Assembly: GCA_016841965.1 (NCBI GenBank)
Contig: JAEANN010000054.1
Location: 124,001 to 188,000 of the forward strand
Source of the DNA: Candidatus Roseilinea mizusawaensis
GTDB taxonomy: Bacteria; Chloroflexota; Anaerolineae; J036; Brachytrichaceae
Length of the DNA: 64,000 bases
Direction of reading: 5' to 3'
Every line of letters begins with the position of its first letter. The first letter of the stretch is position 1. The position numbers and the translations under genes are program-made. The notes beneath the pieces are model-generated. The model worked only from the letters and a program-made list of their open reading frames with translations. It made no database searches and was not told the origin of the DNA. This document shows, one piece after another, positions 1 through 28,829 of this stretch.

Positions 1-1482
1 GTGCTGGCCGAACAGGGCAAAGTGGACATGGAGGAAGAAATCCGCGCCCACATTGGCAGAACGGGACGAACCCAGATCATCTGTCGCACCGGCAGTCCCA
101 TTGACCCGGTCGATATCGATATGGCCAACCCCGACGAAGCCTCGGCCATCATCATTCTGTCGCCCGATGGCGATGCTGACCCGGATGCCCAGGTCATCAA
201 GTCGATCATGGCGCTGACGCGGGATGGCGCGCGCAAACGGGCGCGCAAAGCAGGCCGATATCGCATCGTGGCCGAGATCCAGGAAGAGCGTAATCTGAAG
301 GTCGCGCGGCTGGTCGGCGGCGACGACGCGACGTTGATCCTGTCCGGCGATTTGATCTCGCGCGTGATGATGCACACCTGCCGGCAGCCGGGCCTGAGCG
401 CGGTGTATACAGAACTGCTCGGCTACACGGGCAGCGAAATCTACTTCCGCGTCGAACCCAGTCTGGTGGGACGGACTTACGGCGAAGCGATCTTAGCGTA
501 CGAGGATTGCAGCGTGGCCGGGCTGCGCAAACGGGGGCAGCCGGCGCATCTCAACCCGCCGGCCGACGCGCCGATCGAACCGGGTGACGAATTGATTCTG
601 ATCGCTGAAGACGATAGCGCCACCCGCGCCGGCACGATCGCGTCGGCGCAAATCGACCTTTCGGCGCTGCGCGAACCGCACATTGCCTCTCCTGCGCCCG
701 AAAGATTCCTGATCCTGGGTTGGAATGTGCATGGCCCCACCTTCCTTACGGAATTGGATCGGTTTGTCGCGCCCGGCTCCGAGGCGTTGGTGGTTGCCGA
801 TCTGGGAAACGCCGAAGACGATGTGGCCGGGGTAGCCGGCAGTCTGGAGCGCCTGAGCGTGTCCGCTCAGGCCGGCGACACCACAGACCCCCTTGCACTC
901 GAAGCGCTGGAGCTGGGGCGATTTGACCACGCGCTGGTGCTGTGCTACTCAAACCAGCTCGGTGTGCAGGAGGCTGATGCGCGCACCACCGTCACATTGC
1001 TGCACGTGCGCGAGATCATGCGCCAAATGTCTGGCGCAAGCGCGGGCGAGCACCAGCCGGCTTCCGGAGCCGGCTTCAACATCGTCAGCCAAATGCTCGA
1101 CCTGCGCAATCGCGAACTGGCCGAGGTAACTCGCGCCGATGATTTCATCGTCAGCGATAACCTTGTCAGCCTCATCCTGGCGCAAGTTGCGCAGGACCCC
1201 GGCCTGGCCGATGTGTTCGTCGATCTGCTGGCTGTAGAGGGGTCGGAAATCTATCTGGAGCCGGCCAGCGCATATGTCCAGACCGGCCGGCCGGTGAACT
1301 TCTACACGGTGTGCGAAGCAGCCCGCCGGCGCAACGAGACAGCCATCGGCTACCGGTTACACGCCCTGGCCGGTGACGCCACAAAGTCCTATGGCGTTGT
1401 GATCAACCCGCCCAAGTCCAAGCAGGTTACCTTCGGCAGTTTGGATCGCATCATCGTGCTGGCCGAAGCCGATGAGGCGTGA
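1..1482 (+). CDS. CASTOR/POLLUX-type putative ion channel, C-terminal part (5' end outside window)
   Basis: This is the C-terminal part of a potassium-channel-like protein of the CASTOR/POLLUX family, whose members carry N-terminal membrane helices followed by two tandem RCK/TrkA-like nucleotide-binding modules. Only the soluble portion is visible. A first module runs over roughly residues 1-220 and includes the family-typical stretch ending GDELILIAEDD. A second starts near residue 228 (ERFLILGWN, a beta-alpha-beta dinucleotide-fold start) and runs to the end. No membrane helix is present, so the open frame at base 1 is a truncation by the window edge and the GTG there is not a credible start. 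It converges on the ABC ATPase gene, with a shared hairpin between them. Its likely role is regulated monovalent or divalent cation flux. The family call is good, but ion specificity cannot be read. Confidence 0.8.
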   Translation: MLAEQGKVDMEEEIRAHIGRTGRTQIICRTGSPIDPVDIDMANPDEASAIIILSPDGDADPDAQVIKSIMALTRDGARKRARKAGRYRIVAEIQEERNLKVARLVGGDDATLILSGDLISRVMMHTCRQPGLSAVYTELLGYTGSEIYFRVEPSLVGRTYGEAILAYEDCSVAGLRKRGQPAHLNPPADAPIEPGDELILIAEDDSATRAGTIASAQIDLSALREPHIASPAPERFLILGWNVHGPTFLTELDRFVAPGSEALVVADLGNAEDDVAGVAGSLERLSVSAQAGDTTDPLALEALELGRFDHALVLCYSNQLGVQEADARTTVTLLHVREIMRQMSGASAGEHQPASGAGFNIVSQMLDLRNRELAEVTRADDFIVSDNLVSLILAQVAQDPGLADVFVDLLAVEGSEIYLEPASAYVQTGRPVNFYTVCEAARRRNETAIGYRLHALAGDATKSYGVVINPPKSKQVTFGSLDRIIVLAEADEA

Positions 1483-1524
1483 CAGGGTCTGGCATGACCT
1501 GACAGGCGCGACAAGCACACAACA

Positions 1525-1554
1525 AGCGGCGAGCGGGTTCAACCGCTCGCCGCT
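1525..1554. terminator. Bidirectional intrinsic-terminator-like hairpin
   Basis: A perfect 12-bp stem (AGCGGCGAGCGG with CCGCTCGCCGCT) closes a 6-base loop between two convergent genes. There is no long T-run on either side; the minus-strand side is followed by a mildly T-rich stretch. It probably ends both transcripts. Confidence 0.6.
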
Positions 1555-1607
1555 GTCATGAAAATGCTGGAGGTGCGAGGCGATGCGCGCAGTACGCGCG
1601 CGACAAC

Positions 1608-2708
1608 TCATCGAATGGCCTTCTCAGTCTGCTTGTCGAAGATGTGGAAGCGGTCCATGTTGAAGGCCAGACTGGCGGTGTTCCCCACGCGCAGTTTCGA
1701 GCGCGGGTCGACGCGAGCAAGGAACGACTTGTCCTTGGCGTTCAGATACAGGATCACTTCGTTGCCCATCAACTCGGTCACTTCCACTTTGGACTCGACC
1801 AGCGCCTGGTGAATGCCGGGCGGCGCGAATTCGGGATCGTGGACGTTTTCGGGCCGGATGCCGAAGATGACCTGAGTGCCTTTGTAAGGCTTGTACGGCT
1901 CGACGCGCTCGGCAGGAATTTTGACGCGGAAAGCGCCGGCGTCAACGTACATCTCGCTGTCGCTGCCGGTGAGCGTGGCGTCGAAGAAGTTCATCGACGG
2001 GCTGCCGATGAAGCCGGCCACAAACACATTATCCGGCTGGTCGTACAGATTTTGCGGTGTATCGATTTGCTGGAGTAGACCGTCCTTCATCACGGCGATG
2101 CGAGTGCCCATGGTCATCGCCTCGGTTTGGTCATGGGTCACATAAATGAAGGTGGTGCCGAGTTGCATGTGCAGTTTGCTGATCTCGGCGCGGGCCTGCA
2201 CGCGCAATTTGGCGTCCAGGTTGGACAGGGGTTCGTCCATCAGGAACACCGCCGGGTTGCGCACGATTGCGCGGCCCACGGCAACGCGCTGGCGCTGGCC
2301 GCCGGACAGTTGCTTCGGTTTGCGGTCGAGCAGCGCTTCAATGCCCAGGCGCTTGGCGGCTTCGCGCACGCGGCGATCGATCTCTGCCTTGGGCACACGG
2401 CGCAGCTTCAAACCAAATGCCATATTGTCATACACAGACATGTGCGGATACAGCGCGTAGGATTGGAACACCATCGCAATGTCACGATCTTTCGGGGGTA
2501 CATCATTGACGAGCCGGTCGCCAATGTAGATATTGCCTTCGGTGACCTCTTCCAACCCGGCCAACATGCGCAGCGATGTGGTTTTGCCGCAACCCGAAGG
2601 GCCAACAAATACCAGGAACTCCCGATCAGCAATCTGGATGTTCAAGTCGTTCACCGCCACGACATCGCCAAAACGCTTGGTGACATGTTCAAAAGTCACA
2701 CTAGCCAT
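1608..2708 (-). CDS. ugpC: MalK/UgpC-type sugar ABC transporter ATPase
   Basis: This cytoplasmic ATPase powers CUT1-type carbohydrate importers. Walker A is GPSGCGKTT (residues 36-44), the Q-loop glutamine is Q82, the signature is LSGGQ (134-138), Walker B is FLMDE (155-159) and the switch histidine is H192. The C-terminal third (about 240-366) is the regulatory OB-type domain typical of MalK, UgpC and MsmK. The length of 366 residues is normal. AGGAGG sits 9 bases before ATG, which fixes the start. No permease or binding protein is adjacent, so it is probably a shared ATPase. The two permease pairs at 21.9-29.8 kb lack any ATPase of their own, which makes this the nearest candidate partner. 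That pairing is inference. Confidence 0.92.
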   Translation of the reverse strand: MASVTFEHVTKRFGDVVAVNDLNIQIADREFLVFVGPSGCGKTTSLRMLAGLEEVTEGNIYIGDRLVNDVPPKDRDIAMVFQSYALYPHMSVYDNMAFGLKLRRVPKAEIDRRVREAAKRLGIEALLDRKPKQLSGGQRQRVAVGRAIVRNPAVFLMDEPLSNLDAKLRVQARAEISKLHMQLGTTFIYVTHDQTEAMTMGTRIAVMKDGLLQQIDTPQNLYDQPDNVFVAGFIGSPSMNFFDATLTGSDSEMYVDAGAFRVKIPAERVEPYKPYKGTQVIFGIRPENVHDPEFAPPGIHQALVESKVEVTELMGNEVILYLNAKDKSFLARVDPRSKLRVGNTASLAFNMDRFHIFDKQTEKAIR

Positions 2709-2784
2709 TTAACAATTACCTCCTAAGTGTCAGCGAGAGACGTATAATTCGCCACGTGCTTGGCATTGTACACAGACCGCCCAA
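2709..2784. promoter_or_regulatory. Divergent promoter region between the ABC ATPase and larA
   Basis: This 76-base spacer separates two divergent genes. On the plus strand TATAAT (2743-2748) could be the -10 for the larA homologue, although no good -35 stands 17 bases upstream. On the minus strand TACAAT near 2766-2771 and the strong AGGAGG ribosome-binding site at 2719-2724 serve the ATPase gene. The elements were picked by eye. Confidence 0.35.
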
Positions 2785-4095
2785 ATGCGCAAATCAGGCC
2801 CCACCACTCCATCTGCGATGCCTATACCTATGCCAACCCGAATTCGTGAGACTGTCGCTGCACCGGCCAGTCTGCCCGGCCGGCCAATCGACGCTGACCA
2901 TCTGGCGTCCGGCATCCAGCATGTCGGCGCGGCCCATCTCCAAGACTATGCCCGGCCGGGGGCGCGCGTCACGATTGCCTTCACCGACGCAACGCGCGCC
3001 TGCCCCGACGCAGCCCTGATCGCATTTCTCATCGATGAGCTGACTGCTCTTGGGGTGCGCTCAGAAGACATCACCCTGTTGTGCGCCACCGGCCTGCACC
3101 GCCCAATGACTCAGGCTGAGCTCTTGATCAAACTGGGCGTGCAGATTGCCACACAGACGCGCATCGTCGATCACAGCGCGCTCGACGCGCACAGGCTAAT
3201 TGACCTGGGTGAGATCAACAGCCTGCCCGTTGTAACAGACCGGCTGTGTGTGGACACCGATTTACTCATAGCGACCGGCGTGGTCGAGCCACATCAGTAC
3301 GCCGGCTATTCTGGCGGCGCCAAGACGGTCGTCATCGGCTGCGCCGGCGAAGCCACCATCCAGGCTACGCACAGCCCGGACATGCTCGACCATCCCGGCG
3401 TGCGGCTGGGCAAGATCGAGAACAACCCCTTCCAGCAATTCGTGCGCGCAGCCGGCCAACGCATTGGGTTGCGTCTCGCGCTCAACGTCGTGCTGAGCGA
3501 GCATGGCGATATCCTGTTTGCGGCCATGGGCGACCCCGTCAGCACGCACGATCATCTGGTCGCTCAGGCGCGAACGCTGTACGAGGTGAACGTGCCGCGG
3601 CGGGCGCATTTGGCGCTGGCCGGTGTCGAGCCGGTGAAAGCCGTTAACCTTTATCAAGCCAGCCGGGCAGCGACATACCTGGCGCTGGCCGACGACACGC
3701 CCCTGTTGCCCGGCGCCCCAATCATCCTGCCCGCGCCAATCCCAGAAGGAGCCGGCCAGGGCGCCGGCGAGAGACGGTTCTTCGACATGCTGTCGCGCGC
3801 GCCATCGCCCGCCCAACTGATCGAGCAAATGCGCCGCGAGGGTTTTCCAGCCGGCGCGCAGCGCGCATATATCCTCGCCCAGGTGCTATTGCAGCACCCG
3901 ATCATCGTGGTGGGCGCAGACCATCCCCAAGTCGTCAGCGCCTGTCATATGCTGAATGCCCCCAATCTCGACGAAGCCCTCCGCATGGGCGAAGCCCTTG
4001 CCCGCAGACAATTCCACCTTTCAGATGATGACTGGCTGGACTATCTGATCGTCCCGCACGCGCTGTTGACACTGCCACGATTGGCGGCACAATAG
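2785..4095 (+). CDS. larA: LarA-family nickel-pincer racemase/epimerase homologue
   Basis: This is a homologue of lactate racemase LarA, an enzyme using a covalently attached nickel-pincer nucleotide to racemise 2-hydroxy acids; many homologues act on other hydroxy acids or sugar acids. Residues matching LarA are visible in order: DATR (D68, R71), ATGLHRP (H105), EPH (H170), SGGAK (K180, the pincer-binding lysine position) and THS (H196). Their spacing is close to that of characterised LarA. The N-terminus is about 30 residues shorter than usual and no ribosome-binding site precedes the first ATG, so ATGs at 2818 or 2830 are also possible. No larB, larC or larE maturation gene is in the window. 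A decayed copy of its 3' end lies at 37.1 kb. Family certain; substrate unknown. Confidence 0.85.
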   Translation: MRKSGPTTPSAMPIPMPTRIRETVAAPASLPGRPIDADHLASGIQHVGAAHLQDYARPGARVTIAFTDATRACPDAALIAFLIDELTALGVRSEDITLLCATGLHRPMTQAELLIKLGVQIATQTRIVDHSALDAHRLIDLGEINSLPVVTDRLCVDTDLLIATGVVEPHQYAGYSGGAKTVVIGCAGEATIQATHSPDMLDHPGVRLGKIENNPFQQFVRAAGQRIGLRLALNVVLSEHGDILFAAMGDPVSTHDHLVAQARTLYEVNVPRRAHLALAGVEPVKAVNLYQASRAATYLALADDTPLLPGAPIILPAPIPEGAGQGAGERRFFDMLSRAPSPAQLIEQMRREGFPAGAQRAYILAQVLLQHPIIVVGADHPQVVSACHMLNAPNLDEALRMGEALARRQFHLSDDDWLDYLIVPHALLTLPRLAAQ

Positions 4096-4531
4096 CTGCA
4101 AAATCCAGCAGTGGCAACACCCGCTTGAACGTGTCGTGCGAGGGCACCCCGTTGGCGCCTCCAGCAGAAATATGCGAAACCAGGCTTTTTTGGCTTTCGC
4201 AAACACTTCGGCTTTTCAGTGAAATGCTCGGTGCCGCAGATGACTGCGCTGAATGCGATAATCAAGACATCGACGAGTTTATGTTAGCGCGTCCGATCAA
4301 CACACGCATCCACCGTTAGGCCATAATGGGTCTATCTCCCATACTGATGCAATCTGTTGACCACGACTGGCAGACCGGGAGATCGCAAGCCCAGAGACCA
4401 CCGCAATTGACACAAGGGCCTTTCGTATTAGAATACGCGCGCACCATGTAAGAGATTCAGTCAAACTATCATCTTCCCCACTGTCACCTTATTGCCCCAC
4501 GTAGAGCGATGAGATCACCCCATGTAGAGCA
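4096..4531. other. Non-coding stretch downstream of larA
   Basis: About 436 bases carry no credible reading frame, RNA gene or strong hairpin. Composition is lower in GC than the flanks. It leads into the LacI pseudogene and looks like eroded or inserted DNA. Confidence 0.5.
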
Positions 4532-4960
4532 ATGAGCCAACGACAGCAAACCAACCATCAGCGACCGACCCTGCGCCAAGCGGCGCAGCTAGCAGACATT
4601 TGGATGGGAACCATCTGGCAAGCGCTGAACAATCGGCCGAATGTCCTGCCGAAAACGCGCGAAAAGGTCTATTGTGCGCTGCCCAGGAGCTTAGGTATTA
4701 GCGCACCTACGGGCGCAAAGGCCATGGACCATCCACCATCAGCCTACTGGTCAAGCTAGGTCCGGGCGCGTCGCCGCCGGTGTTCAATCCTTCTTCTGCC
4801 CTGTGCAAGCAGGCGTGGAGCAGGAATGCCGAATTTGGCCCCTCAACCTCTTGCTGGTCGCGGTGAATGCACCGTGCACGCGCCCAAGACCTGGCCGGGG
4901 CGGCTGGGCGTGCGCCAGTTGATCCAGCATGTAGCATGGGTGCACGCCCGACATGCCGCG
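4532..4960 (+). pseudogene. LacI-family transcriptional regulator, frameshifted and truncated
   Basis: The first frame opens with a recognisable LacI-type helix-turn-helix: RPTLRQAAQLADIWMGTIW followed by QALNNRPNVLPKTREKV. It carries substitutions at normally conserved positions (VS to IW, S to W). It then degrades and stops at 4759. The start of the effector-binding domain continues in shifted frames: LLVKLGPGASPPVFNP from about 4744, then FFCPVQAGVEQECRIWPLN from about 4789. Nothing resembling the remaining 200 or so residues of a LacI protein follows. At least two frameshifts and loss of the C-terminal two thirds make this a clear pseudogene. It presumably once controlled a neighbouring sugar-uptake or secreted gene. 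It is distinct in sequence from the intact LacI protein at 19.5-20.5 kb. Confidence 0.75.
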
Positions 4961-5160
4961 TGTGGCGATCAGCGTATCGATGCACCTGGTTCGCCGCGCC
5001 TCATCAGGCTACTACCAACGACAAGGAAATGACCATGATCTACCCGTGTGACCTCCCGGCATCACTGCGGCCCTTTCGTGGGAGCGTGGCCCATGCGCCG
5101 CGTCCTCTGATGCATCGGGGAAAGGCCGGCCCGATCTGAACATCTTCAACTCTCAAAAAG

Positions 5161-8100
5161 GTGTATTGGCTCATGCAGACACAAATGATCCTCCCCCTTC
5201 TAGTGCGCCGTGTATTCCGTGGGTGGTTGGCCACGCTGCTGGCGCTAAGCGCGCTTGCCGGGCCACTGATGCACCCGCCCCGCTCGACCTATGCCTCGAC
5301 GCCGCTGATTGCATACGACGACGTGCTGGCAACGGGCACATACAATTGGTCGGATTGGTCGTGGGGTGGCACCTATAACCTGGCCCACACGACGACGGTT
5401 TACAACGGCAGCCAATCCATCGAGGCCACCATCACCATCGGCTATGGTGCGCTTTCGTTGCGCGTGGATACCGGGCTGGCCGGCTCAGCTTACAGCGCTG
5501 TGCGCTTCTGGGTGCACGGGGGGAGCACACCCGGCCTCCGTCAGTTGCAGGTGGTGATTGAGGAAAGTGATTCGGGCGGCCCGTATAGCTCACCCTTCAC
5601 GTTCGATGCGCCGGCCGGGACGTGGACGCAGGTGATCGCGCCGCTCAGCGCAATGGGCAACCCGACGACCATCAAGCGCATCAACATCCAGGATCGCACC
5701 GGCGCCGGCCAACCCACCTTTTATCTGGACGAGATTCAACTCATCCCGGCATCGCCGCCACCGCCGGGGTGCGACGTCCCGGTGTATCTGGACGGCCTGG
5801 GCACCAACTGGCAGAACTGGTCGTGGAATGGATCGTATGACTTTGCGCACGGCACCACCGTGCAGCAGGGCGTGCTGGCGATCGAAGCCACGACGATGGG
5901 CCCCTACGGCGGCATCTCTTTCCGCGTGGATCCGGGCCTGCCCGGTGGGGCTTACACTGCAGTGACCTTTTGGGTGCATGGCGGGACCAGTGGAATACGC
6001 AAGCTCCAGCTCTTCATGCAGCAGGCCGACAGCGGCGGAGATACCGCTGCGGTGCCGTTCGACGCGCCGGCCGGCGTCTGGACGCCGGTCACTATCTCGC
6101 TGGCGGCCCTGGGCAATCCGACCACCATCAAGCGCATCAACATCCAGGATCGCACCGGCGCCGGCCAACCTGCCTTCTACGTCGACACCGTATGCCTGAC
6201 CACCACGCCGGTGCCGCCGCCTCCACCGCCTCCACCGTACTGCGATCTGCCGATCTACCTGGATGCGCTGGCGGCCGGCTGGCAGAACTGGTCGTGGGAC
6301 GGCAACTACGACTTGGCTGCATCTAGCCCGGATCCGGTATATGAAGGGAGCTTTGCGATTGCTGCGACGATCAACAACGCCTACGGCGGACTCTCCTTAC
6401 GCTCGCCGGTCGCCTTAAGCGGATCATCCTACGCGAGCGTGGTCTTCTGGGTGCATGGCGGCAGCGCGCCCGGCGCCCGCCAGTTACAGGTGGTGATCGA
6501 GGGCAGCGACTCGGGCGGTCCGTATAGCTCACCTTTCACGTTTGATGCCCCGGCCGGGACGTGGACGCAAGTGATCGCGCCGCTTAGCGCGATGGGCAAC
6601 CCGGCGACCATCAAGCGCATCAACATCCAAGATCGCACCGGCGCTGCCCAACCCACCTTCTATGTGGATTTGGTATGCCTGTCGAGCACGCTCACACCGC
6701 CGCCGCCGCCACCGGCTCCGCCACCCGCTCCGCCGCCGGGGCCGCCGCCGGGGCCGCCGCCTTCGCGCTTCCCCGGCCTGCCGGGCTGCGCTTACACGCT
6801 GTACGATGATGCGCTGGCCGACGGATGGGAGGACTGGTCGTGGAACACCAACGTGAATCGTGAACATCCTTACGCGCTGACCGGCAGCGCGTTGGCGTTC
6901 AAATACCGCGAAGGCTACGCCGGCCTTTCGTTGCGCTCGCCCCAACCGCTGGCGCGGGGTGAATATGACGCGGTGGCCTTTTGGGTCAATGGCGGCGAAG
7001 ACCCCGGACTGCGACGGATTGTGTTCTTCATCCAGAGCAGCGACGACGGCGGCGAGTCGCGCCGTTTTCACCTTGACATTTCGCCCCAGACGTGGACACC
7101 GGTCACCGTGCCGCTGGCCATCCTGGGTGACGTGACCGCGATCAAGCGACTGAACTTCCAGGAGCGCACCGGCCAAGCCCAAGATCCCATCTTTCTTGAC
7201 AACATCTGCTTCTTGCGCGGCGATGTCGCCGTCTCGGCAGGCGCTATGGCCTATATGCAGCCCGGCAATCGGTTGATCTTCGACGAAACCACCGATGAAG
7301 CGATCGAGAACTGGTCGTGGGATACCGAGATCAGCTTTGCCAACACCCAGCCCGCCATCGGCCTGCGCTCGGCGGCAGTGCGCCATCTGAAAGGCTACGG
7401 GGGGCTATCCTTGCGCTTCCGCGAAGGATTGAGCACCGCCCAGTACGGCGGCCTAGTCTTTCGCATTCATGGCGGCGACGCCGGACGGCGGCAACTTGAT
7501 CTGTTCATCCAACAGGCCGACGAGGGCGGAGATTCGCCTCGGCTATCTTTTGATGTGCCGGCCGGGCGGTGGTATGAAGTTGCCGTGCCGTTCAGCGCGC
7601 TGGGCAACCCTGCAGTGGTCAAGCGCATCAACCTTCAGGATCGCAGCGGCGCGCCGCGGACGTATTACCTGGATGACATCGTGCTGGTCGCCCAGCCCCC
7701 TGCGCTCAGCGTGCCCGCCCCGGCGGTTGCACCGGCCCCGCCTGTCCCAGATGCTTCCGACGGCTCGCCTCTGGGGCCAGAGGGCTTTGTGTATCAGGAC
7801 GCGCTGGCTCCCGGCTGGGAGAACTGGTCGTGGAACAGCCAGGTGAACCTGGAGAACGCGCAACCGGCCTTGGGGGGGCGCTCTATTGCGGTGCGCTACC
7901 AAGAGGGTTACGCCGGCCTCTCGCTGCGCGCGCCGATCACGTTGGACGCAGCAGCCTACACCGGCATTGTTTTCTGGGTGCACGGTGGGGCGACGGAGGG
8001 CGAGCGCGCACTGCGCTTCTTCGTGCAGCAGAGCGATAGCGGCGGCGACTCTCGCGCCGTGGCCTTTGAAGCGCCGGCCGGCGCGTGGACGCCGATCACC

Positions 8101-9165
8101 ATTTCCCTGTCCAGCCTGGGGGACCTCAAGACCATCAAGCGCCTGAACGTGCAAGACAACAGCGGCACAGCACAGCCACCCTTCTTCGTGGATGCCGTTC
8201 GCCTGATCACCGGGCCGGTGGTCGGCGCGCTGACGCCGCCCCCCACCGGACCCACGGCCGAAGGGGGTTACCTGATCTTCAGCGATAGCCTGGCCGAGGG
8301 TTGGGAGAACTGGTCGTGGGATGCGCAGGTGAACTTGGCCAACCGTGAAGCGGTCTTCGCCGGCCGGCGCGCCATCAGCGTGACGATGCTCAAAGGCGCC
8401 GGCGGATTTTCGCTGCGCGCCCCAATCACCCTGGACGGCGCGTCCTACGGCGCCGTGCGCCTACGCGTGCTGGGCGGACAGGCGCGCCCGCGGCGGGTGC
8501 AGCTCTTCTTGCACAGCGCGGACACCTCGGGCAGCGAAGGCCCAGGCTTCTTGTTCGACGTGATCGGCCAACGTTGGCTCACCATCACCATCCCGATGAA
8601 CTTGCTCGGCAACCTGCCGACCATCAAGCGCGTCAACATCCAAGACTTGAGCGGCGCTTCAGAGATGAGCTTCTATGTGGATGAGCTGGAGCTGCTGCCG
8701 CGCAGCGCTGCCGAGTCGGTGTTGCCACGCGCGCCGCATTTCACCTTGTTCGGCAACGTGCTGGCCAAGGGGTGGCGCGATGCTTCCCGCGGGGCGCGTG
8801 TCTCCTTCCGCGAGGCGCAGAACGTGCGGGCGATGTACGCCATCGCGGTGCAGCCAACGCAGCCGAGCGCAACATTCCGGCTTGAAGCGACGCAGCCGTT
8901 GGACGTGCGCGAATTCCGCACCTTCAGCATATGGGTGAACGGCGGAGCACAGGATGCGCGTAACCTGCGCTTGCGGCTCTATCCTGCCTCGGCCGGCGCC
9001 CAGCCGTTCGAGACGCGCTTTGACGCGCCGGCGAACCGTTGGGTGCAAGTGACCGCTCCGCTCAAGCCATTGGGCAGTGATGCGTTGCAGGCGATCGAGG
9101 TCGTCGCTGAAGGCGGTTCGCCGGGAGCGACCTTGTATCTAGAGGACATTCGCCTCGTCCGTTAG
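5161..9165 (+). CDS. Secreted protein made of eight carbohydrate-binding-like beta-sandwich repeats
   Basis: This exported protein of 1334 residues contains no recognisable catalytic domain. After an N-terminal signal (hydrophobic LATLLALSALAG, cleavage plausible after TYAS) there are eight modules of about 140-150 residues. Each begins with a D-A-L-A-x-G-W-x-N-W-S-W-like segment, passes through a F-W-V-H-G-G strand and a P-L-S-x-L-G-N-P-x-x-I-K-R-I-N-x-Q-D segment, and ends with F-Y-x-D. This is the jelly-roll pattern of CBM-like or galactose-binding-like domains. Linkers 2-4 are rich in proline. Module 8 has lost the WSW and IKRIN signatures. It probably binds polysaccharide at the surface or in the medium. 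GTG 5161 or ATG 5173 could start it; AAAGG lies just upstream. The beta-helix gene follows after 31 bases. Confidence 0.75.
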   Translation: MYWLMQTQMILPLLVRRVFRGWLATLLALSALAGPLMHPPRSTYASTPLIAYDDVLATGTYNWSDWSWGGTYNLAHTTTVYNGSQSIEATITIGYGALSLRVDTGLAGSAYSAVRFWVHGGSTPGLRQLQVVIEESDSGGPYSSPFTFDAPAGTWTQVIAPLSAMGNPTTIKRINIQDRTGAGQPTFYLDEIQLIPASPPPPGCDVPVYLDGLGTNWQNWSWNGSYDFAHGTTVQQGVLAIEATTMGPYGGISFRVDPGLPGGAYTAVTFWVHGGTSGIRKLQLFMQQADSGGDTAAVPFDAPAGVWTPVTISLAALGNPTTIKRINIQDRTGAGQPAFYVDTVCLTTTPVPPPPPPPPYCDLPIYLDALAAGWQNWSWDGNYDLAASSPDPVYEGSFAIAATINNAYGGLSLRSPVALSGSSYASVVFWVHGGSAPGARQLQVVIEGSDSGGPYSSPFTFDAPAGTWTQVIAPLSAMGNPATIKRINIQDRTGAAQPTFYVDLVCLSSTLTPPPPPPAPPPAPPPGPPPGPPPSRFPGLPGCAYTLYDDALADGWEDWSWNTNVNREHPYALTGSALAFKYREGYAGLSLRSPQPLARGEYDAVAFWVNGGEDPGLRRIVFFIQSSDDGGESRRFHLDISPQTWTPVTVPLAILGDVTAIKRLNFQERTGQAQDPIFLDNICFLRGDVAVSAGAMAYMQPGNRLIFDETTDEAIENWSWDTEISFANTQPAIGLRSAAVRHLKGYGGLSLRFREGLSTAQYGGLVFRIHGGDAGRRQLDLFIQQADEGGDSPRLSFDVPAGRWYEVAVPFSALGNPAVVKRINLQDRSGAPRTYYLDDIVLVAQPPALSVPAPAVAPAPPVPDASDGSPLGPEGFVYQDALAPGWENWSWNSQVNLENAQPALGGRSIAVRYQEGYAGLSLRAPITLDAAAYTGIVFWVHGGATEGERALRFFVQQSDSGGDSRAVAFEAPAGAWTPITISLSSLGDLKTIKRLNVQDNSGTAQPPFFVDAVRLITGPVVGALTPPPTGPTAEGGYLIFSDSLAEGWENWSWDAQVNLANREAVFAGRRAISVTMLKGAGGFSLRAPITLDGASYGAVRLRVLGGQARPRRVQLFLHSADTSGSEGPGFLFDVIGQRWLTITIPMNLLGNLPTIKRVNIQDLSGASEMSFYVDELELLPRSAAESVLPRAPHFTLFGNVLAKGWRDASRGARVSFREAQNVRAMYAIAVQPTQPSATFRLEATQPLDVREFRTFSIWVNGGAQDARNLRLRLYPASAGAQPFETRFDAPANRWVQVTAPLKPLGSDALQAIEVVAEGGSPGATLYLEDIRLVR
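5305..9162 (+). repeat. Eight tandem modules of about 430-450 bp coding for CBM-like domains
   Basis: Approximate module limits are 5305-5750, 5770-6205, 6235-6690, 6785-7225, 7260-7700, 7785-8215, 8265-8700 and 8740-9162. Modules 1 and 3 are nearly identical in their last third at the DNA level, around 5578-5717 versus 6518-6657. That points to recent duplication or gene conversion, while module 8 is strongly diverged. Confidence 0.8.
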
Positions 9166-9196
9166 TGATTATCTTCTTCTTTATAGAGGAAAGAGA

Positions 9197-12127
9197 ATGA
9201 AGGTGAAAACACTCACTCATTTCGTTTGTGGCCTCATCGGCGGTTTGTGTGCTGCCGTGTGGTTAGGCGCTCAACCCACGCACGCCGGCACGATCACGGT
9301 GACGCTGGACTTCGATCGCTTCGACGCCGGCGCAACCAGTGATTGCTCGCTGCGCGAGGCAGTTCAAACCGCGAACACGAATGCCCCGTTTGCGGGATGT
9401 CAAGCGCTTGGCTCTTTGGACGATGATGTCATCGTGTTTGACCCTGGTGTGAACACGGTGTTCATCACGCGCACTGTGAGCGGCCCAGATAACGACCACA
9501 ACGAAGACGGCGATCTCGACGTCTTCGTTGGGACGGTGAGCGGCACGCTCACCGTCCAAGGTCCGGTTGACATCGTGGTGCGCGCCCTCTTCGACCGCGC
9601 CTTTGACGTACACGCCGATCCTTCCGGCAGCGGGGCGTTCACCCTGGATCGCGTTCGCGTGTCGGGCGGCGACTTGCGCATTGGCCTCACCACCGACACC
9701 TTCAGCGGCGACCAGGACCAAATTAAGTGCGCGGTCGGGGGCGGCGCGCTGCGCGTCCAGGCGGGGGTGAGCGCGCTGTTGAGCCAGGCGACGCTGCAAG
9801 AGAACGCGGCAGCCTACGCCGGCGGTGGGGTGTGCGTCCGCGAAGGGGGCGCATTAGCCCTCAGCAGGGCGCAGGTGATCTCGAACACGGTTGGGCTGAG
9901 CGGCACAGATCAGGTGGACTGGGTGCTGGGCGGCGGCGGGATATGGAGCAGCGGCCCGCTGACGGTGGTGCAGTCGTTTGTGCTGGGCAACAGCGCAGTG
10001 CTGAGCGGTGGCTACTATGGCCATGCCGGCGGCGGCGGCTTGGGCGTCATCACCGGCTCGCTGGTCATCTCGCAGAGCGAAGTGCGCGCCAACCGGGTGC
10101 AGCAGAACGCACCCGGCGCCGAGGCGCAAGGCGGCGGCATCATGGCGTTGCGGCTCGACAACACGCCGGTTGATGTCCTGATAGACCAAGTGACGGTTGA
10201 GGGCAACATCTCGGAAGGCGGCGTGTCTGCCTATGGCGGCGGCGTGGCGCTGTTGCAGGGCGTGCGCGCTCTCATCACGGGCAGCACGGTGATCTCGGGC
10301 AACGTGCTGAGCGCGACGCAAAATGCCCTGGGGGGTGGCTTGGCCGCAGGGTTGGCGTACTACCCATCCGGCTATCTGCCGCCTGTGGCGACCCTCACCG
10401 GGGGCCACGTATCGCACAATACCGCCACGGCCAGCGCGGCTTCGTCGCCGGGCGTGGTCACCCCCACCGTCTTTGGCGGCGGTGCGTTCTTCGGCCAGGG
10501 CGTGGTCTTCAGCATGACACAGGGGACGCAGGTGCGCGAGAACGCGGCGCGCTACATCGGCTCCCTGAGTGACAACACCAACGGATTTGGCGGCGGGGTG
10601 AGCGCTTTTGCGGTTCCTGCCGGTGCAATTGAGGACGCCGTCGTGGAAGGCAACGCGCTGTTCGGCTTCCGCTTCGGTGGTGGGGCCGGCGTGCATACCG
10701 GCGGCGACGTGTGGGTGCGGCGAACCCAAATCGCGGGGAACAGCGCGGGGTCTTCCTCCGCTTCCTCGGCCGGCACGCTGGGCGGCGGCATGTATGTGAA
10801 CTGGGGCGTGGCGCATGTGGAAGACGCCTGGGTTTACGGAAACGTCATCACCGGAACACAATTTGCCAATGGTGGAGGATTCGGCGTGGATGGCGCGCTC
10901 TACATCACCCACACCCAGGTGAGCACCAACACCGCATTGAACGGTGGTGGATTTGTGGATAACGGCTCTGCTGCTGTGTTTGCGCGCGCCATCACCGTCA
11001 CCGACAATGTCGCCACAGGATCCAGCTATGCCCAGGCCGGAGCGTGGTCCGGGGACGGCACGGTGGTCGTCACGGCCGGCCTGATCGCGGGCAATGTGGT
11101 GAGCGCGCCGAGTGGCGCAGGTGGGGCGCTTATGCGCTACGGCGGGGAGTTCCACGTCTCTCATTCGGTGTTACGCGAGAACCGCGTGGGAGCCGTATGG
11201 TATGCCAACGGCGGCGCGGCGTTGATTGGCAGCAATGCCAAACTGTGGCTCACTGCCACCCAGGTGCTGAGCAACACAGCGTTGGCGACGAGTAACCCGG
11301 CTTACGTGGGGGGGATAAACGTTGATGGTGGCCAAGCATGGCTGCGCGGCGTGGTGATCTCCGGTAATCTGACGATGGGCGACAACGCCAGCGGCGGGGC
11401 CGGACTTGGCGTCGGCAGCTCTGGCGCAGCGGATGCCGAGGGAATCGTCATCCGCGATAACCGCGTGGTAAGCGCGTCCAACCCCAGCGCCGTCGTGGGC
11501 GGAGGCGGTGGAGTGAGCAACGGCGCGGTGGTGCGCCTGCGGCGCGCCTCGGTGATCCACAACCAAGCGGCGTACGGCTCAGGCATCAACACCTACGGCG
11601 CGGCCGAGACGCATCTGCTTAATGCCACGGTGAGCGGCAACGGATATCCCGGAGCAACCGGGCCGCACGGCATTGCGCTAACCGGCACTGCATACTTGAC
11701 CCACACCACCGTGGCCAGCAACACTGGCGCAGGGGTGGGGTTGGCTGGGACGAGCCTCTCTTTACGCGCCGTGGCGCTGGCGCATCACAGCGGCGGCAAC
11801 TGCCTCAATCAAGGCGGCAGCGTGGTCAATAGCGATGCCAGCGTGAGCGATGACGGGAGCTGCAGCGTTTTCTTCGTCGGCAGCGGCGCCCTGAACAACG
11901 CAGCCAACGTGAAGTTGCTGCCGTTGACCTTCCACGCGCCGAGCAGCATGTGGTATCACCCCACAGCGTTGGGCAGCGATCTGCACGATCGGGTGCCGTA
12001 CGCTTTCCTGGCCGGCATTGATCAACTTGGCCAACCGCGGCCCAGCGGCACGCTCCACGCCGACACCGGTGCGTTTGAATTCCAGAACTTGCATCGTGTG
12101 TTTGCACCGATCGTGCGCAAGCCTTGA
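9197..12127 (+). CDS. Secreted right-handed beta-helix protein with CSLREA domain
   Basis: This 976-residue exported protein has a signal peptide (residues 1-30, ending near THAG), a CSLREA motif (C50-A55, near the start of many bacterial extracellular beta-helix proteins) and then about 850 residues of short glycine-rich coils. These contain repeated GGG, VSGN, SNTA and NTALNGGG-type turns, as expected for a parallel beta-helix. The protein ends in HRVFAPIVRKP, resembling the short hydrophobic/basic tails that recur at the ends of exported Chloroflexota proteins and may act in sorting. GAGGAAAGAG precedes ATG. It lies 31 bases after the CBM-array gene and is probably co-transcribed. Possible roles are pectin-like polysaccharide binding or cleavage, or adhesion; no lyase catalytic motif was identified. 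Structure call good, function open. Confidence 0.75.
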   Translation: MKVKTLTHFVCGLIGGLCAAVWLGAQPTHAGTITVTLDFDRFDAGATSDCSLREAVQTANTNAPFAGCQALGSLDDDVIVFDPGVNTVFITRTVSGPDNDHNEDGDLDVFVGTVSGTLTVQGPVDIVVRALFDRAFDVHADPSGSGAFTLDRVRVSGGDLRIGLTTDTFSGDQDQIKCAVGGGALRVQAGVSALLSQATLQENAAAYAGGGVCVREGGALALSRAQVISNTVGLSGTDQVDWVLGGGGIWSSGPLTVVQSFVLGNSAVLSGGYYGHAGGGGLGVITGSLVISQSEVRANRVQQNAPGAEAQGGGIMALRLDNTPVDVLIDQVTVEGNISEGGVSAYGGGVALLQGVRALITGSTVISGNVLSATQNALGGGLAAGLAYYPSGYLPPVATLTGGHVSHNTATASAASSPGVVTPTVFGGGAFFGQGVVFSMTQGTQVRENAARYIGSLSDNTNGFGGGVSAFAVPAGAIEDAVVEGNALFGFRFGGGAGVHTGGDVWVRRTQIAGNSAGSSSASSAGTLGGGMYVNWGVAHVEDAWVYGNVITGTQFANGGGFGVDGALYITHTQVSTNTALNGGGFVDNGSAAVFARAITVTDNVATGSSYAQAGAWSGDGTVVVTAGLIAGNVVSAPSGAGGALMRYGGEFHVSHSVLRENRVGAVWYANGGAALIGSNAKLWLTATQVLSNTALATSNPAYVGGINVDGGQAWLRGVVISGNLTMGDNASGGAGLGVGSSGAADAEGIVIRDNRVVSASNPSAVVGGGGGVSNGAVVRLRRASVIHNQAAYGSGINTYGAAETHLLNATVSGNGYPGATGPHGIALTGTAYLTHTTVASNTGAGVGLAGTSLSLRAVALAHHSGGNCLNQGGSVVNSDASVSDDGSCSVFFVGSGALNNAANVKLLPLTFHAPSSMWYHPTALGSDLHDRVPYAFLAGIDQLGQPRPSGTLHADTGAFEFQNLHRVFAPIVRKP

Positions 12128-12143
12128 ACCAGGATATGCTGAG

Positions 12144-12182
12144 CCGGGCGCAAGCGGGTAGAACGCCCCGCTTGTGCCCCGG
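12144..12182 (+). terminator. Hairpin after the beta-helix gene
   Basis: A stem of about 13 bp with one G-T wobble (GGGCGCAAGCGGG with CCCGCTTGTGCCC) and an 8-base loop starts 17 bases after the stop codon. It has no T-run, so it may be a weak or factor-dependent terminator or a transcript-stabilising structure. Confidence 0.4.
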
Positions 12183-12232
12183 CCTGTGTTGCACGAATGT
12201 TTAGATAAAACAATCTTGAAGGAGAAGTTACC

Positions 12233-14074
12233 GTGAAGACGCGACTGACACGCAGACAAGTGTTGCGCGCCGGGAGCTGGGCCGGCCTGGGACTGTTGGC
12301 AGCCGCCTGCGGCGGCGGGTCGGCTGAGCCGGCGGCGTCCCCAGCCGCCCAGGCCGAGCCCACTCCCACCGAGGCGCTGCCCATGTTGCCCGGAAGCGAG
12401 GTGCGCCCGCAGGCGCCGATTGTGCTTAAGGAGGTTCCCCGCAACCGCACTCTCATTGTCAACTATGGCGGTGCAGGCGGGCAGTTCACCAATCAAGGCG
12501 TGACCAACCCCTGGTCTACGTTGGGCTACAACCACCAAGAGGGCAATGCGCTGCTCTGGGAGCCGCTGTTCTACTACTCGGTGTTCGCCGACAAAGAGAT
12601 CCCCTGGCTGGCGGAACGCGGCGAGTACAACGCCGATTACACCGAACTGACCATCACCATGCGCGCCGGCGCGGAATGGAGCGATGGCGTGCCGGTCACC
12701 TCCGATGACGTCAAGTACACGCTGGACACGCTGGGGCAGAATGACATGCTCAATTACCACGCGCAGGTTGCCGAGGCGGTGAAAGAAGTGCAGGCGCCCG
12801 ATCCGCGCACAGTGGTGATTCGCTTTAACAAGCCCAGCCCACGCTTCAAGTTTGAAATCCTCAGCCTAAAGTTCGACACCGGCATTCCCATCTTGCCCAA
12901 GCACGTGATGGAGCAAATGTATGACGTGACGGCGATGCCGGGAGACGATGACGTGGTGCATAGCGGCATGTTCAACACCGTGCAGACGCCGCAGCAGAAA
13001 GTGTTTGACCTGCGCGAGGACTGGTGGGGCTTTAAGACCGGCTTCCAGCCAAAGCCCGACGTGCAGCGCGTGTTGGTAATCCCGATCAGTGACATGACCT
13101 TAGCCGCTCAGCGAGTGGTGAACAACGACGTGGACGCCACGCTCGACATGCGCGCCTCGTTGATCCGCTCGGTGGTGGAGCAAAACCCCAAGATCATCAC
13201 CCACACCGGTCGCGCTGAGCCGTTCGGCTATGTGGACTGGTGGCCAAACTCGTTGTGGATGAACACACAGCGTGGAGCATACAGCAACCCCGATGTGCGC
13301 TGGGCGCTCAACCTGTCCATTGATCGTGAGACGCTCGACCGCTTCGCGTTCAACGGCGTGAAGACCACCACCATCTTCCCCTTCCCGGAGTACAAGGCGC
13401 TGAAGCCATATCTAGACCGTGTGCGGTCGCGCGGCGAGGCGCTGGGCGTGGGGCGCTTCAGCTTAGAGGAGAGCGCGGCGCGCATGCAGCGCGCCGGCTT
13501 CGCCAAGGACGGCGAGGGCTTTTGGGTCAAGGATGGCCAGCGGGTTAACGCCACCATCCATGGCTTCGAGTCCATTCACGCCGACGTCGCTCCTATTTTG
13601 GTGGAGATGCTGCGTCGGGGAGGCTTCGAGGCTGCGGTGAACTTCGGCACCGACGCTTTCCAGAATATGGTGGACGGTCAACCTGGGCTATATCTCTATG
13701 GCCACGGCGGCAGCCTGGTAGATCCCTATGCCACCCTGGAGCTGTATCACAGCCGCTCCAGCCAGCCCACGCAGAGCGGCGTCGGCGGCAGCAATCGTTT
13801 CTCCCGTTACGCCAACCCAGCGTTCGATCAAGTGGTGGATGCGATGAGCATCACACCGCCGGGTGATCCGCGCCTATTTACGCTGTTTGAACAGGCGATG
13901 GACATCTACTGGGGCGATATGATTGACATCCCGCTCGTCCAATGGCTGCATCGTATTCCCTACAACACCACCTACTGGACCAATTGGCCAACGCAGGAGA
14001 ACCCGTATCTGAACGGCGCGTTCTGGCATTACACCTTCCCCTTGTTGGTCTTGAACCTGAAAGCGGCAGCGTGA
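12233..14074 (+). CDS. Family-5 (peptide/oligosaccharide) ABC solute-binding lipoprotein
   Basis: This extracytoplasmic binding protein of the SBP_bac_5 (DppA/OppA-like) type has 613 residues. The N-terminus combines a twin-arginine-like TRRQVLRAG stretch (R7, R8) with a lipobox LAAAC (C26), followed by a low-complexity Ala/Pro/Thr linker. The mature part has the family hallmark: the FYYSVF-to-WLAERGEYN region and the WSDGVPVTSDDVKYTLDTL segment (about residues 143-165). Start is GTG at 12233, with AAGGAGAA 7 bases before it. No permease or ATPase genes accompany it, which is unusual for this family. It sits among secreted polysaccharide-interaction genes, and some family members bind oligosaccharides such as cello- or xylo-oligomers. 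Substrate unknown. Confidence 0.85.
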   Translation: MKTRLTRRQVLRAGSWAGLGLLAAACGGGSAEPAASPAAQAEPTPTEALPMLPGSEVRPQAPIVLKEVPRNRTLIVNYGGAGGQFTNQGVTNPWSTLGYNHQEGNALLWEPLFYYSVFADKEIPWLAERGEYNADYTELTITMRAGAEWSDGVPVTSDDVKYTLDTLGQNDMLNYHAQVAEAVKEVQAPDPRTVVIRFNKPSPRFKFEILSLKFDTGIPILPKHVMEQMYDVTAMPGDDDVVHSGMFNTVQTPQQKVFDLREDWWGFKTGFQPKPDVQRVLVIPISDMTLAAQRVVNNDVDATLDMRASLIRSVVEQNPKIITHTGRAEPFGYVDWWPNSLWMNTQRGAYSNPDVRWALNLSIDRETLDRFAFNGVKTTTIFPFPEYKALKPYLDRVRSRGEALGVGRFSLEESAARMQRAGFAKDGEGFWVKDGQRVNATIHGFESIHADVAPILVEMLRRGGFEAAVNFGTDAFQNMVDGQPGLYLYGHGGSLVDPYATLELYHSRSSQPTQSGVGGSNRFSRYANPAFDQVVDAMSITPPGDPRLFTLFEQAMDIYWGDMIDIPLVQWLHRIPYNTTYWTNWPTQENPYLNGAFWHYTFPLLVLNLKAAA

Positions 14075-14133
14075 AACCGCGTGAGCGCTTCACCGAGCTG
14101 CAATGCTCCACAGACTGAGCGGCGCGCGATCTG

Positions 14134-14176
14134 AAAAGGGGGAAGGCGCTCTATCAGACGCCTCCCCCTTTTTTTG
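14134..14176 (+). terminator. Rho-independent terminator
   Basis: A GC-rich stem (AAGGGGGAAGGCG pairing with CGCCTCCCCCTT) and a 10-base loop are followed by TTTTTTT. It ends the plus-strand transcript of the solute-binding protein. Confidence 0.85.
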
Positions 14177-14216
14177 CACAGACGTGCCGCCTTGAGAGCC
14201 TACCTGTTGTATGTGA

Positions 14217-15344
14217 TTAGGGCTGCCCGTTGGGGAACAGAGCACGGTGCAGAGGCTCAATCCACTGTTGCTCAGCGCGGTTGTACACGCCAAACCCTTC
14301 GCTGAACTCCCAGTAGGCCCAGGTGATGCCGCGCGATTCGGCGGCGCGCGCGACATAGTCCGTCCATCGCGCGCGATCTTCTAGCTCGGCATACATGCCG
14401 TAGCTGCCGAACTCGCCCATCCAAACGGGCACGTTTTTATCTTTGCTCCAGCGCGCCAGCGCGTTGAAGGCGCGATCAATCGCCAAGCGATCAGATTCTG
14501 TACCAAGCCACCGCGCGCCGATCCATTCTGCGCTGCCGTTGACCCAGTTTGCCCCCTGGTGAGTGAAAGTGTCCGGTTCATAGAAGTGGAAAGTGGCGAT
14601 GAGGTAGGGGTCTTGGGGCACGGCAATGCTGAACAGGCTGGATAGACGCCCCCAATTGGCTCCGGTGAAGATCACGTTGCGCGTGGGATTGGTGCGACGA
14701 ATCACAGTGAGCGTCTCGTTGAACAGTGCTTGCCACACCCGCGAAGTGAGCGCGCCATGAGGCTCGTTGAGCGGCTCGAACAATACTGTGGGAGGCAGGT
14801 CCCGATAGCGCGTGGCAATCTGATCCCATAGCGCCAAGAAGCGCGTCCATTCTGCGTTGGGGTTCTCGAACAGCTCCTCGTAGTGATGCACATTGATCAC
14901 GACGTTGAGGTCGTTGTTGAGCGCTTGTTCAATCACCCAATCAACCCGCTCGAAGAACGTCGGATCAATGGTGAAGGGCTCCTCGCGCAGTGCGTGGGCT
15001 GACCACCGGATGGGCACGCGCACTGTGTGGAAGCCGCCTTCTCGGATGAGGGGGAACATGTATGCATCTAGCCGTAACCCCCATTCTCCTTCGTTGGGGG
15101 CTTCCAGCGCATTGCCCAGGTTCAGGCCTCTGCCCAGGCGCTGCTGCATGGTGAAGGGATCAATGGGCGCGTAGGTGTCGGCCGGCGCAGGCCCCATCTC
15201 AGGCTCACGGGCAATGACAGGAGCAGGGGAGGCCATAGGAGGAAGGGTGGGCGTTGGCGACTGCGGGGCAGCGCAGCTCGTGAGCGCCATCACACTGCCG
15301 GCCCAGAGGAACGCGGCAAGCCGGTACGCTTGTTTGATCTTCAT
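14217..15344 (-). CDS. GH5-family endoglucanase-like lipoprotein
   Basis: This 375-residue glycoside hydrolase family 5 enzyme is predicted to be anchored outside the cell. Its signal peptide ends in LTSC (C24) and a Pro/Ala-rich linker runs to about residue 60. The catalytic (beta/alpha)8 barrel shows LGRGLNLGNALE (start of barrel), VRVPIRW, VINVHHYEE, EPLNEPHG (acid/base E194) and WMGEFGSYG (nucleophile E311). GH5 enzymes cut beta-1,4-glucans, mannans, xyloglucan or related chains by a retaining mechanism. The gene is on the minus strand, converging on the terminator at 14.13-14.18 kb, and stands alone. Together with the CBM-array and beta-helix genes it suggests extracellular plant- or biofilm-polysaccharide attack. 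Family and catalytic residues clear; substrate not. Confidence 0.9.
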   Translation of the reverse strand: MKIKQAYRLAAFLWAGSVMALTSCAAPQSPTPTLPPMASPAPVIAREPEMGPAPADTYAPIDPFTMQQRLGRGLNLGNALEAPNEGEWGLRLDAYMFPLIREGGFHTVRVPIRWSAHALREEPFTIDPTFFERVDWVIEQALNNDLNVVINVHHYEELFENPNAEWTRFLALWDQIATRYRDLPPTVLFEPLNEPHGALTSRVWQALFNETLTVIRRTNPTRNVIFTGANWGRLSSLFSIAVPQDPYLIATFHFYEPDTFTHQGANWVNGSAEWIGARWLGTESDRLAIDRAFNALARWSKDKNVPVWMGEFGSYGMYAELEDRARWTDYVARAAESRGITWAYWEFSEGFGVYNRAEQQWIEPLHRALFPNGQP

Positions 15345-15798
15345 ACCAAAGCCTCGCTTACCTTGGGATAACTTCGTTTAGTGCGCCTATTCTACTATTG
15401 AGACGGTGACGATGAAGCCGGCACGAGGACGCCCCAGGCGCCCATGATGAATGCATCGCTTAGTACTCACAGGGCTTTCGCTTATGTAGGAGTAAAAGCT
15501 CGAATTTGACGCACCGCTGCTCAGTTCAAAATCTTTGACGAGCAGAGGCAGAATGAGCGATGAGCGTTGTAAACGACAGCCTTGAGGCAGCTTTCACGGC
15601 GGATGAGGCGCGCCACTTTCAGATGCCGGCTTTCACACAATTGTTTCGTTTTCCTGGTCTTCGTGGCTTCGCGTTATGCGAGGTTTTCAACTGAGACTGC
15701 GCAAGTAAACAAAGGGCCTTTTTGGCATCTCGAGCGAGGTGAGTCTTGGAGACAGTTTGCCCGCGCCGAGTTGGAGACTTGCCGGGCCTGCGGGGCGG
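15345..15798. other. Intergenic boundary between the GH5 gene and the island
   Basis: No convincing gene is present. The minus strand just upstream of the GH5 start holds a possible -10 (TAGAAT near 15393-15398). Around 15.74-15.79 kb two short imperfect direct repeats of a TTGGAGAC-containing sequence are visible. Composition changes across this stretch from GCCGGC-rich to GCCGGC-poor, marking the left edge of the island. Confidence 0.45.
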
Positions 15799-18099: not shown

Positions 18100-18116
18100 G
18101 CGAGTCCTTTATGTAG

Positions 18117-18134
18117 CGCGAGATTCATCTCGCG
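18117..18134. repeat. Palindromic repeat CGCGAGAT-TC-ATCTCGCG
   Basis: A perfect 8-bp inverted repeat around TC lies between the GH144 and GH35 genes. A second hairpin (GCGAC/GTCGC near 18165-18180) follows, giving a compound element. A related copy with a GAGAT-AA-ATCTC core lies at 19455-19466. Confidence 0.6.
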
Positions 18135-18209
18135 TGACGTGAAATTTATCTGGGTTTTCGCATTGCGACATCAACGTCGCGCTGCGAATATCGCGTCATA
18201 CAGAGTGAG

Positions 18210-19439: not shown

Positions 19440-19454
19440 GAGTCCTGGCACTGC

Positions 19455-19466
19455 GAGATAAATCTC
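19455..19466. repeat. Palindromic repeat core GAGAT-AA-ATCTC
   Basis: This is a second copy of the short palindrome seen at 18117-18134, located between the lacI stop and the preferred GH144 start. Its presence supports starting GH144 downstream of it. Confidence 0.5.
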
Positions 19467-19486
19467 ACGGTACGAACTGTGGCGCG

Positions 19487-20452: not shown

Positions 20453-20459
20453 AGAGGAG

Positions 20460-20502
20460 TTTCAGGTTTCAAGTGTCAGGTTCCAGGTGTGACAGGTTCA
20501 CA
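20460..20502. repeat. Short degenerate tandem repeat (CAGGTT-containing)
   Basis: Several imperfect units sharing CAGGTT or AGGTTTCA lie in the lacI upstream spacer. This is low-complexity DNA without a visible operator. Confidence 0.35.
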
Positions 20503-20568
20503 AAATCCGACGCAAGAGAGCGTCTCTTACGCTCCAAACGCAGAGGGGCATTCTGCGCTGCGCTGCAA

Positions 20569-22837: not shown

Positions 22838-22838
22838 G

Positions 22839-25873: not shown

Positions 25874-25874
25874 G

Positions 25875-28792: not shown

Positions 28793-28829
28793 AGCTGTTG
28801 AGCCGTTCTAACCTTTCCTCGTTCTATCT

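Follow-up and report, generated by a model that had tools for sequence, protein, structure and literature searches.

An enzyme-free array of eight predicted CBM8-type modules in Candidatus Roseilinea mizusawaensis

Enzyme-free proteins that carry carbohydrate-binding modules (CBMs) are already known, for example Non-catalytic Protein 1 (NCP1) of Piromyces equi, which is part of a fungal cellulosome. The first structure solved for family CBM8 was DdCBM8 of Dictyostelium, according to its 2022 paper, which reports binding to cellulose, glucomannan, beta-glucan, xyloglucan and hydroxyethyl cellulose, but not to xylan or the oligosaccharides tested, and names W572, W574, Y600 and Q686 as binding residues (PMC9079177). 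In MtGlu5 of Meiothermus taiwanensis, a glycoside hydrolase of family 5 (GH5), deletion of the CBM lowered catalytic efficiency, and grafting of this CBM into TmCel5A raised affinity (PMC9063844). Here we describe a gene from Candidatus Roseilinea mizusawaensis, a member of a hot-spring lineage of Chloroflexota (contig JAEANN010000054.1), located at 5161-9165 on the plus strand of a window of 64,000 nucleotides, which is the whole stretch of DNA that we analyzed. The gene, which we call the array, encodes a protein of 1334 amino acids with eight modules (M1 to M8) that we predict to be of the CBM8 type, a rare kind of domain that binds sugar polymers.

The array is a single open frame with a GTG start and an ATG in frame at position 5173. 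Its N-terminus (residues 1-47), read by eye, is signal-like, with a hydrophobic stretch followed by ..TYA/ST (..TAFA/.. in orthologs), and it has no lipobox cysteine. Residues 48-1334 consist entirely of modules and linkers, and Pfam and NCBIfam find no enzyme domain in the chain. Each of the eight homologous modules is about 145 residues long, with M8 forming the C-terminal end, and the linkers between them (7 to 29 residues) are proline-rich around M3. Pairwise identity is 32-70% among M1-M7, which have WSW, GLSLR-like and NIQD-like motifs in common, but only 23-27% between M8 and the others: M8 keeps the framework (GW, GG, a conserved Trp and the final strand) but has lost WSW, the Tyr and the Gln. 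A sequence-only reading of this DNA had proposed an exported chain of eight sugar-binding-like beta-sandwich modules without a catalytic domain, and our results agree with it on each of these points; the eight modules and the signal-like N-terminus recur in orthologs, and a comparison with CBM families places the modules in one of them.

A profile made from the eight modules and searched against the PDB matches DdCBM8 (7t7y) with an E-value of 1.8e-13 over positions 4-142 of 146, and M1 alone matches it with E = 5.3e-7. The same profile matches the CBM of MtGlu5 (E = 8.5e-5), and its match to CBM29 of NCP1 is marginal (E = 1.7). AlphaFold models of M6 and M8 have pLDDT values of 96.7 and 94.5, and the best structural match of both is again 7t7y (Z = 20.8, with 1.8 A over 140 residues, for M6; Z = 19.6 for M8). 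The other structural neighbors are CBM29, which scores lower (Z = 16.6 for M6 and 15.8 for M8), CBM11 (Z = 14.5-15.6) and CBM30. No Pfam model matches a single module above its cut-off, and Pfam, NCBIfam and PDB sequence searches of the array found nothing convincing outside beta-sandwich sugar-binding families; the extra Pfam and NCBIfam matches comprise one marginal match to CIA30, itself a beta-sandwich, and others below threshold. We rejected the CIA30 and Kelch matches in Pfam, which are marginal or below cut-off and are explained by the common sandwich fold or by chance. Profile match, predicted fold and the residues of the binding site agree in classifying the modules as CBM8-type, so that they match a carbohydrate-binding family and not a non-carbohydrate one, which would have argued against sugar binding.

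The four binding residues of DdCBM8 are at chain positions 21, 23, 49 and 135 of the structure (an offset of 551, which we derived from three vector residues and a start at 555). They align to both Trp residues of WSW, the Tyr of GYGxLSLR and the Gln of NIQD, and all four are present in each of M1-M6 in the window. When genomes are compared, every complete sequence of M3, M4 and M5 has the full set, Glu replaces Gln in some copies of M1 and M2, and Phe replaces Tyr in one M6. None of the nine genomes compared has the Tyr in M7, where Ala, Thr, Gly or Asn stands instead, and in all nine M8 lacks every one of the four residues. One copy of M1, in genome G007 (L029:6946-11028), differs locally at the binding site, reading WYGGWWWGG where other copies have WxNWSWGG.

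M1-M6 would each provide an aromatic platform (Trp, Trp, Tyr) and a Gln, as used by DdCBM8 to hold beta-1,4-linked glucan or glucomannan. Since DdCBM8 binds such polymers and not the xylan or oligosaccharides tested, a polymeric beta-1,4-glucan or glucomannan is our leading guess, by analogy, for the ligand of the array. Six sites on linkers, perhaps with a weaker seventh in M7, could bind a long polymer firmly through avidity, a plausible idea given that six sites which look intact have been retained in different genera. A different glycan, for example beta-1,2-glucan, is suggested by a second sugar-use locus in the window (15799-28807, minus strand) with a GH35-like gene, two PF10091 (GH144-like) genes, a LacI regulator, a DUF5696 protein and ATP-binding cassette (ABC) permeases. 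We regard this as very unlikely, because the genes of the second locus have no counterpart beside the arrays of relatives, whereas the beta-helix-like, solute-binding and GH5 genes next to the array do, and because the residues of the site match those of a family whose ligands include beta-1,4-glucans and glucomannan (PMC9079177).

Orthologs with all eight modules are present in five genomes of the same taxonomic family (G007, G008, G013, G017 and G026). They are 1342-1385 amino acids long, and the same profile finds eight modules in each of them, far above chance (E-values from 1e-64 to 1e-28). The ortholog in G004 has seven modules, M1 being absent, and the copies in G016 and G025 are split over contigs; the main array of G025 (L007) lies on a short contig and has in-frame stops. 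G025 also has a separate two-module fragment (L036:3521-4699), which clusters with the M6 of G025 itself. A tree of 79 modules places M4, M5, M7 and M8 each in a single clade according to position (bootstrap 100; 100/100 for M8), does the same for M6 except in G025, and gathers M1-M3 of all genomes in a single mixed clade (100/99). We therefore conclude from this clustering that the order of M4-M8 predates the genera and that M1-M3 evolve in concert.

Between close relatives, dN/dS is well below 1 in all modules, including M8 (0.19-0.32). M8 shows the fastest amino acid change in most comparisons, so the constraint on it is weaker than on the other modules, but it is real. M8 had been read as a decayed module, but recent decay is ruled out by its identical site-less state in nine genomes, its low dN/dS and its good predicted fold, and we conclude that it is an ancient site-less module under purifying selection. 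These data also bear on the idea that the whole array is the debris of a modular enzyme, decaying after loss of its catalytic domain. Elsewhere CBM8-type modules often do stand beside a further, often catalytic, domain, and both the missing binding residues of M8 and the state of the G025 copy would fit; but eight modules in five other genomes, low dN/dS throughout and the fixed order of M4-M8 make it extremely improbable, and decay may be limited to the copy in G025.

Near-identical stretches had been reported in M1 and M3, and this is true of their second halves, where 70 of 82 residues are identical and the DNA is 80-93% identical over most of the length (85% over a tract of 249 nucleotides), but not of their first halves (33 of 67), which are no closer than other module pairs. 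In the first half, M1 is nearest to the M1 of relatives and M3 to the M3 of relatives; in the second half, M1 and M3 are nearest to each other (85%). The use of the same codon at residues shared by M1 and M3 rises from 0.40 in the first half to 0.70 in the second (P = 0.007, which is indicative because the midpoint split was picked after the sliding profile had been viewed and several pairs were tested), and there is no comparable rise for M1-M2 or M2-M3 in the window. Stronger evidence comes from the switch in nearest relative from one half to the other. We interpret the likeness of M1 and M3 as a gene-conversion patch in their second halves, as judged from this mosaic pattern, and half-module patches of a similar kind occur among M1-M3 in G007, G008 and G017. 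A recent duplication of M1 or M3 as a whole module is ruled out, because the two are close only in their second halves and their first halves are nearest to the M1 and M3 of relatives. Ongoing turnover of modules, as proposed from the sequence, is mostly not borne out, with M4-M8 holding their positions across genera; what survives of the proposal is gene conversion among M1-M3, the absence of M1 from G004 and the extra two-module fragment in G025.

Arrays of this size appear to be rare. Among 301 sampled genomes of the phylum, more than two matches occur only in the window's family, and the other matching genomes have one or two. Among 77 named loci from many bacterial phyla, the open reading frames outside the window's group carry one to three modules; these counts come from the best 80 loci and the genome sample, so absence elsewhere is not thereby proven. 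The named records in the array-bearing group are metagenome-assembled genomes (MAGs) of Thermoflexales, Candidatus Roseilinea, Anaerolineae and Chloroflexota. Pfam partners of the relatives with one to three modules include GH26 with CBM27 (L049 and L071), GH5 (L064) and GH44 with SLH (L070). In three loci (L030:3817-6075, L055:2957-5095 and L081:9001-11109) a single CBM8-type module is followed by a domain of about 500 residues to which Pfam and PDB sequence searches gave no assignment; its WEFGNE-/WDFGNE- and E[FY]N-type motifs suggest a clan A glycoside hydrolase. Similarity in the regions outside the module joins 64 loci into one cluster, and L070, the locus with the GH44 match, is among them. 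A literature search of incomplete coverage found nothing specific on enzyme-free tandem CBM arrays, and no description of eight CBM8 modules in tandem that end in a conserved module without a binding site. The components are familiar, from CBM8 modules and CBM proteins lacking an enzyme to GH5 loci with solute-binding proteins; what appears to be new is the eightfold enzyme-free CBM8 array.

Table 1. Features of the array and its neighborhood (window coordinates, approximate for the LacI remnant and the gene-conversion tracts; residue numbers refer to the array protein).
Feature	Coordinates	Strand	Basis or remark
Broken LacI-family regulator remnant, upstream of array	4532..5010	+	tblastn pieces, E 1e-12 to 1e-15
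Eight-module open reading frame, 1334 aa	5161..9165	+	open frame, orthologs
Signal-like N-terminus, residues 1-47	5161..5301	+	by eye, ortholog comparison
M1 (residues 48-197), CBM8-type, four binding residues present	5302..5751	+	
M1 second-half tract, gene conversion with 6420-6668	5481..5729	+	85% DNA identity over 249 nt, mosaic pattern
M2 (205-350), CBM8-type, four binding residues present	5773..6210	+	
M3 (360-511), CBM8-type, four binding residues present	6238..6693	+	
M3 second-half tract, gene conversion with 5481-5729	6420..6668	+	85% DNA identity over 249 nt, mosaic pattern
Proline-rich M3-M4 linker	6694..6780	+	sequence
M4 (541-688), four binding residues present	6781..7224	+	
M5 (703-845), four binding residues present	7267..7695	+	
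M6 (871-1017), four binding residues present	7771..8211	+	structure predicted
M7 (1036-1182), both Trp and Gln kept	8266..8706	+	Tyr lost in 9/9 genomes
M8 (1190-1334), predicted CBM8 fold	8728..9162	+	0/4 binding residues, conserved so
Beta-helix-like exported protein	9197..12127	+	weak CSLREA and choice-of-anchor Q matches; neighbor kept in G013, G004, G007
Family-5 ABC solute-binding protein	12233..14074	+	best solved relative Thermotoga mannoside-binding protein, E 5e-33
GH5, TmCel5A/MtGlu5 type, lipoprotein-like	14217..15344	-	on array's strand in G013

The genes around the array (Table 1) are partly conserved. Upstream of their arrays, G013, G004 and G016 have intact homologs of the LacI regulator, which in G016 is one frame away from the array start. 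In G013, genes for a LacI regulator, the array, the beta-helix-like protein, the solute-binding protein and GH5 are all on one strand; in G004 the series is LacI, array, beta-helix-like protein, solute-binding protein and an ABC permease; and in G008 a GH1 gene adjoins the array. The nearest solved relatives of the window's GH5 are TmCel5A (E = 3e-97) and MtGlu5 (E = 2.6e-94). The description of the neighboring exported protein as beta-helix-like is our own reading of its repeats. This protein ends in ..RVFAPIVRKP and the single-module protein in L030 ends in ..RVYAPLMRR, a type of tail that the array does not have; on exported proteins such tails might be a sorting or anchoring signal. We found no RNA families in positions 1-20000, and no tRNA in the window.

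We consider it probable, with some reservation, that the array is a secreted, enzyme-free, multivalent binder of beta-1,4-glucan or glucomannan that serves its own locus, keeping the polymer close to the products of two neighboring genes, the GH5 endoglucanase and the protein for sugar uptake. Because MtGlu5 unites the same type of GH5 with a related CBM, a joint role of the array and GH5 is supported, by analogy only. Several observations weigh against this proposal. No anchor was found in the array protein, which means that polymer caught by a freely secreted binder could go to other cells. The gene context is not fixed, as G008, G017 and G026 do not have the beta-helix-like, solute-binding and GH5 genes beside the array, and presence of the array is patchy: two further genomes from the same genus as the window have no match. 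DdCBM8 itself showed no binding to oligosaccharides and bound crystalline cellulose weakly (PMC9079177).

The main rival is a matrix or adhesion protein, in which the array would cross-link cells or stick them to a cellulose-like polymer in a microbial mat, serving attachment or structure and not feeding. The same biochemistry would permit this, and so would a secreted, enzyme-free, multivalent chain whose relatives include MAGs of hot-spring lineages, whose solute-binding and GH5 neighbors are missing in three genomes, and whose beta-helix-like neighbor could be a surface protein. We judge it possible but the less probable of the two, because the LacI-type regulator, solute-binding protein and GH5 found beside the array in other genera, and the GH1 in G008, indicate sugar use.

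In the proposed polysaccharide binder, M8 would most likely be a terminal cap or a contact to the cell surface or a partner protein. It could alternatively, perhaps along with M7, dock GH5, the beta-helix-like protein or the cell surface, with M1-M6 holding the substrate, so that the array would be a non-cellulosomal enzyme scaffold. The conserved fold and position of M8, purifying selection on it and the absence of its sugar site in nine genomes would fit such a role. We nevertheless consider it unlikely: according to Pfam, neither the array nor the neighboring GH5 has a cohesin, a dockerin or any other domain for docking, and the rapid change of M8 in most comparisons does not suggest a tight conserved interface. 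A combined version, in which the array captures polysaccharide by itself and M8 (perhaps M7) has turned into a docking module, giving a cohesin-free scaffold for GH5, the beta-helix-like protein and the uptake system, seems to us rather doubtful. A cohesin-type scaffold is also unlikely, because neither cohesin nor dockerin was found, and so of the earlier suggestion that the array resembles a scaffold or a polysaccharide net more than an enzyme, we retain the net, or tether, as the better fit.

With six sites intact and two altered, this natural array of eight modules, kept in several genera, would allow the binding contribution of each module to be measured, and would show whether hot-spring Chloroflexota hold polymers with enzyme-free proteins. 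The TmCel5A-like GH5 and this type of CBM, in one chain in Meiothermus and in two genes in the window, make a clean case of module rearrangement.

Compared with the described systems, the array is closest to DdCBM8 of CelA, which it resembles in profile, predicted fold and, in M1-M6, all four binding residues; but DdCBM8 occurs singly, attached to a GH9 cellulase, whereas the array has eight modules, no enzyme, and altered sites in M7 and M8. MtGlu5 (7vt4/7vt8) matches both parts of the locus, its CBM matching the modules (Z = 15.6) and its GH5 domain the neighboring GH5, but there the CBM is inserted inside the GH5 in one chain, and in the window binder and enzyme each have a gene of their own. 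CBM29 of NCP1 (1gwm, 1wcu) resembles the modules in fold (Z about 16) and in its aromatic platform, and it too belongs to a non-catalytic protein, with marginal sequence similarity to the modules. Cellulosomal scaffoldins are likewise large and secreted, have no catalytic function, consist of repeated modules and bind cellulose, as predicted for the array, but their repeats are enzyme-docking cohesins, none of which was found in the array.

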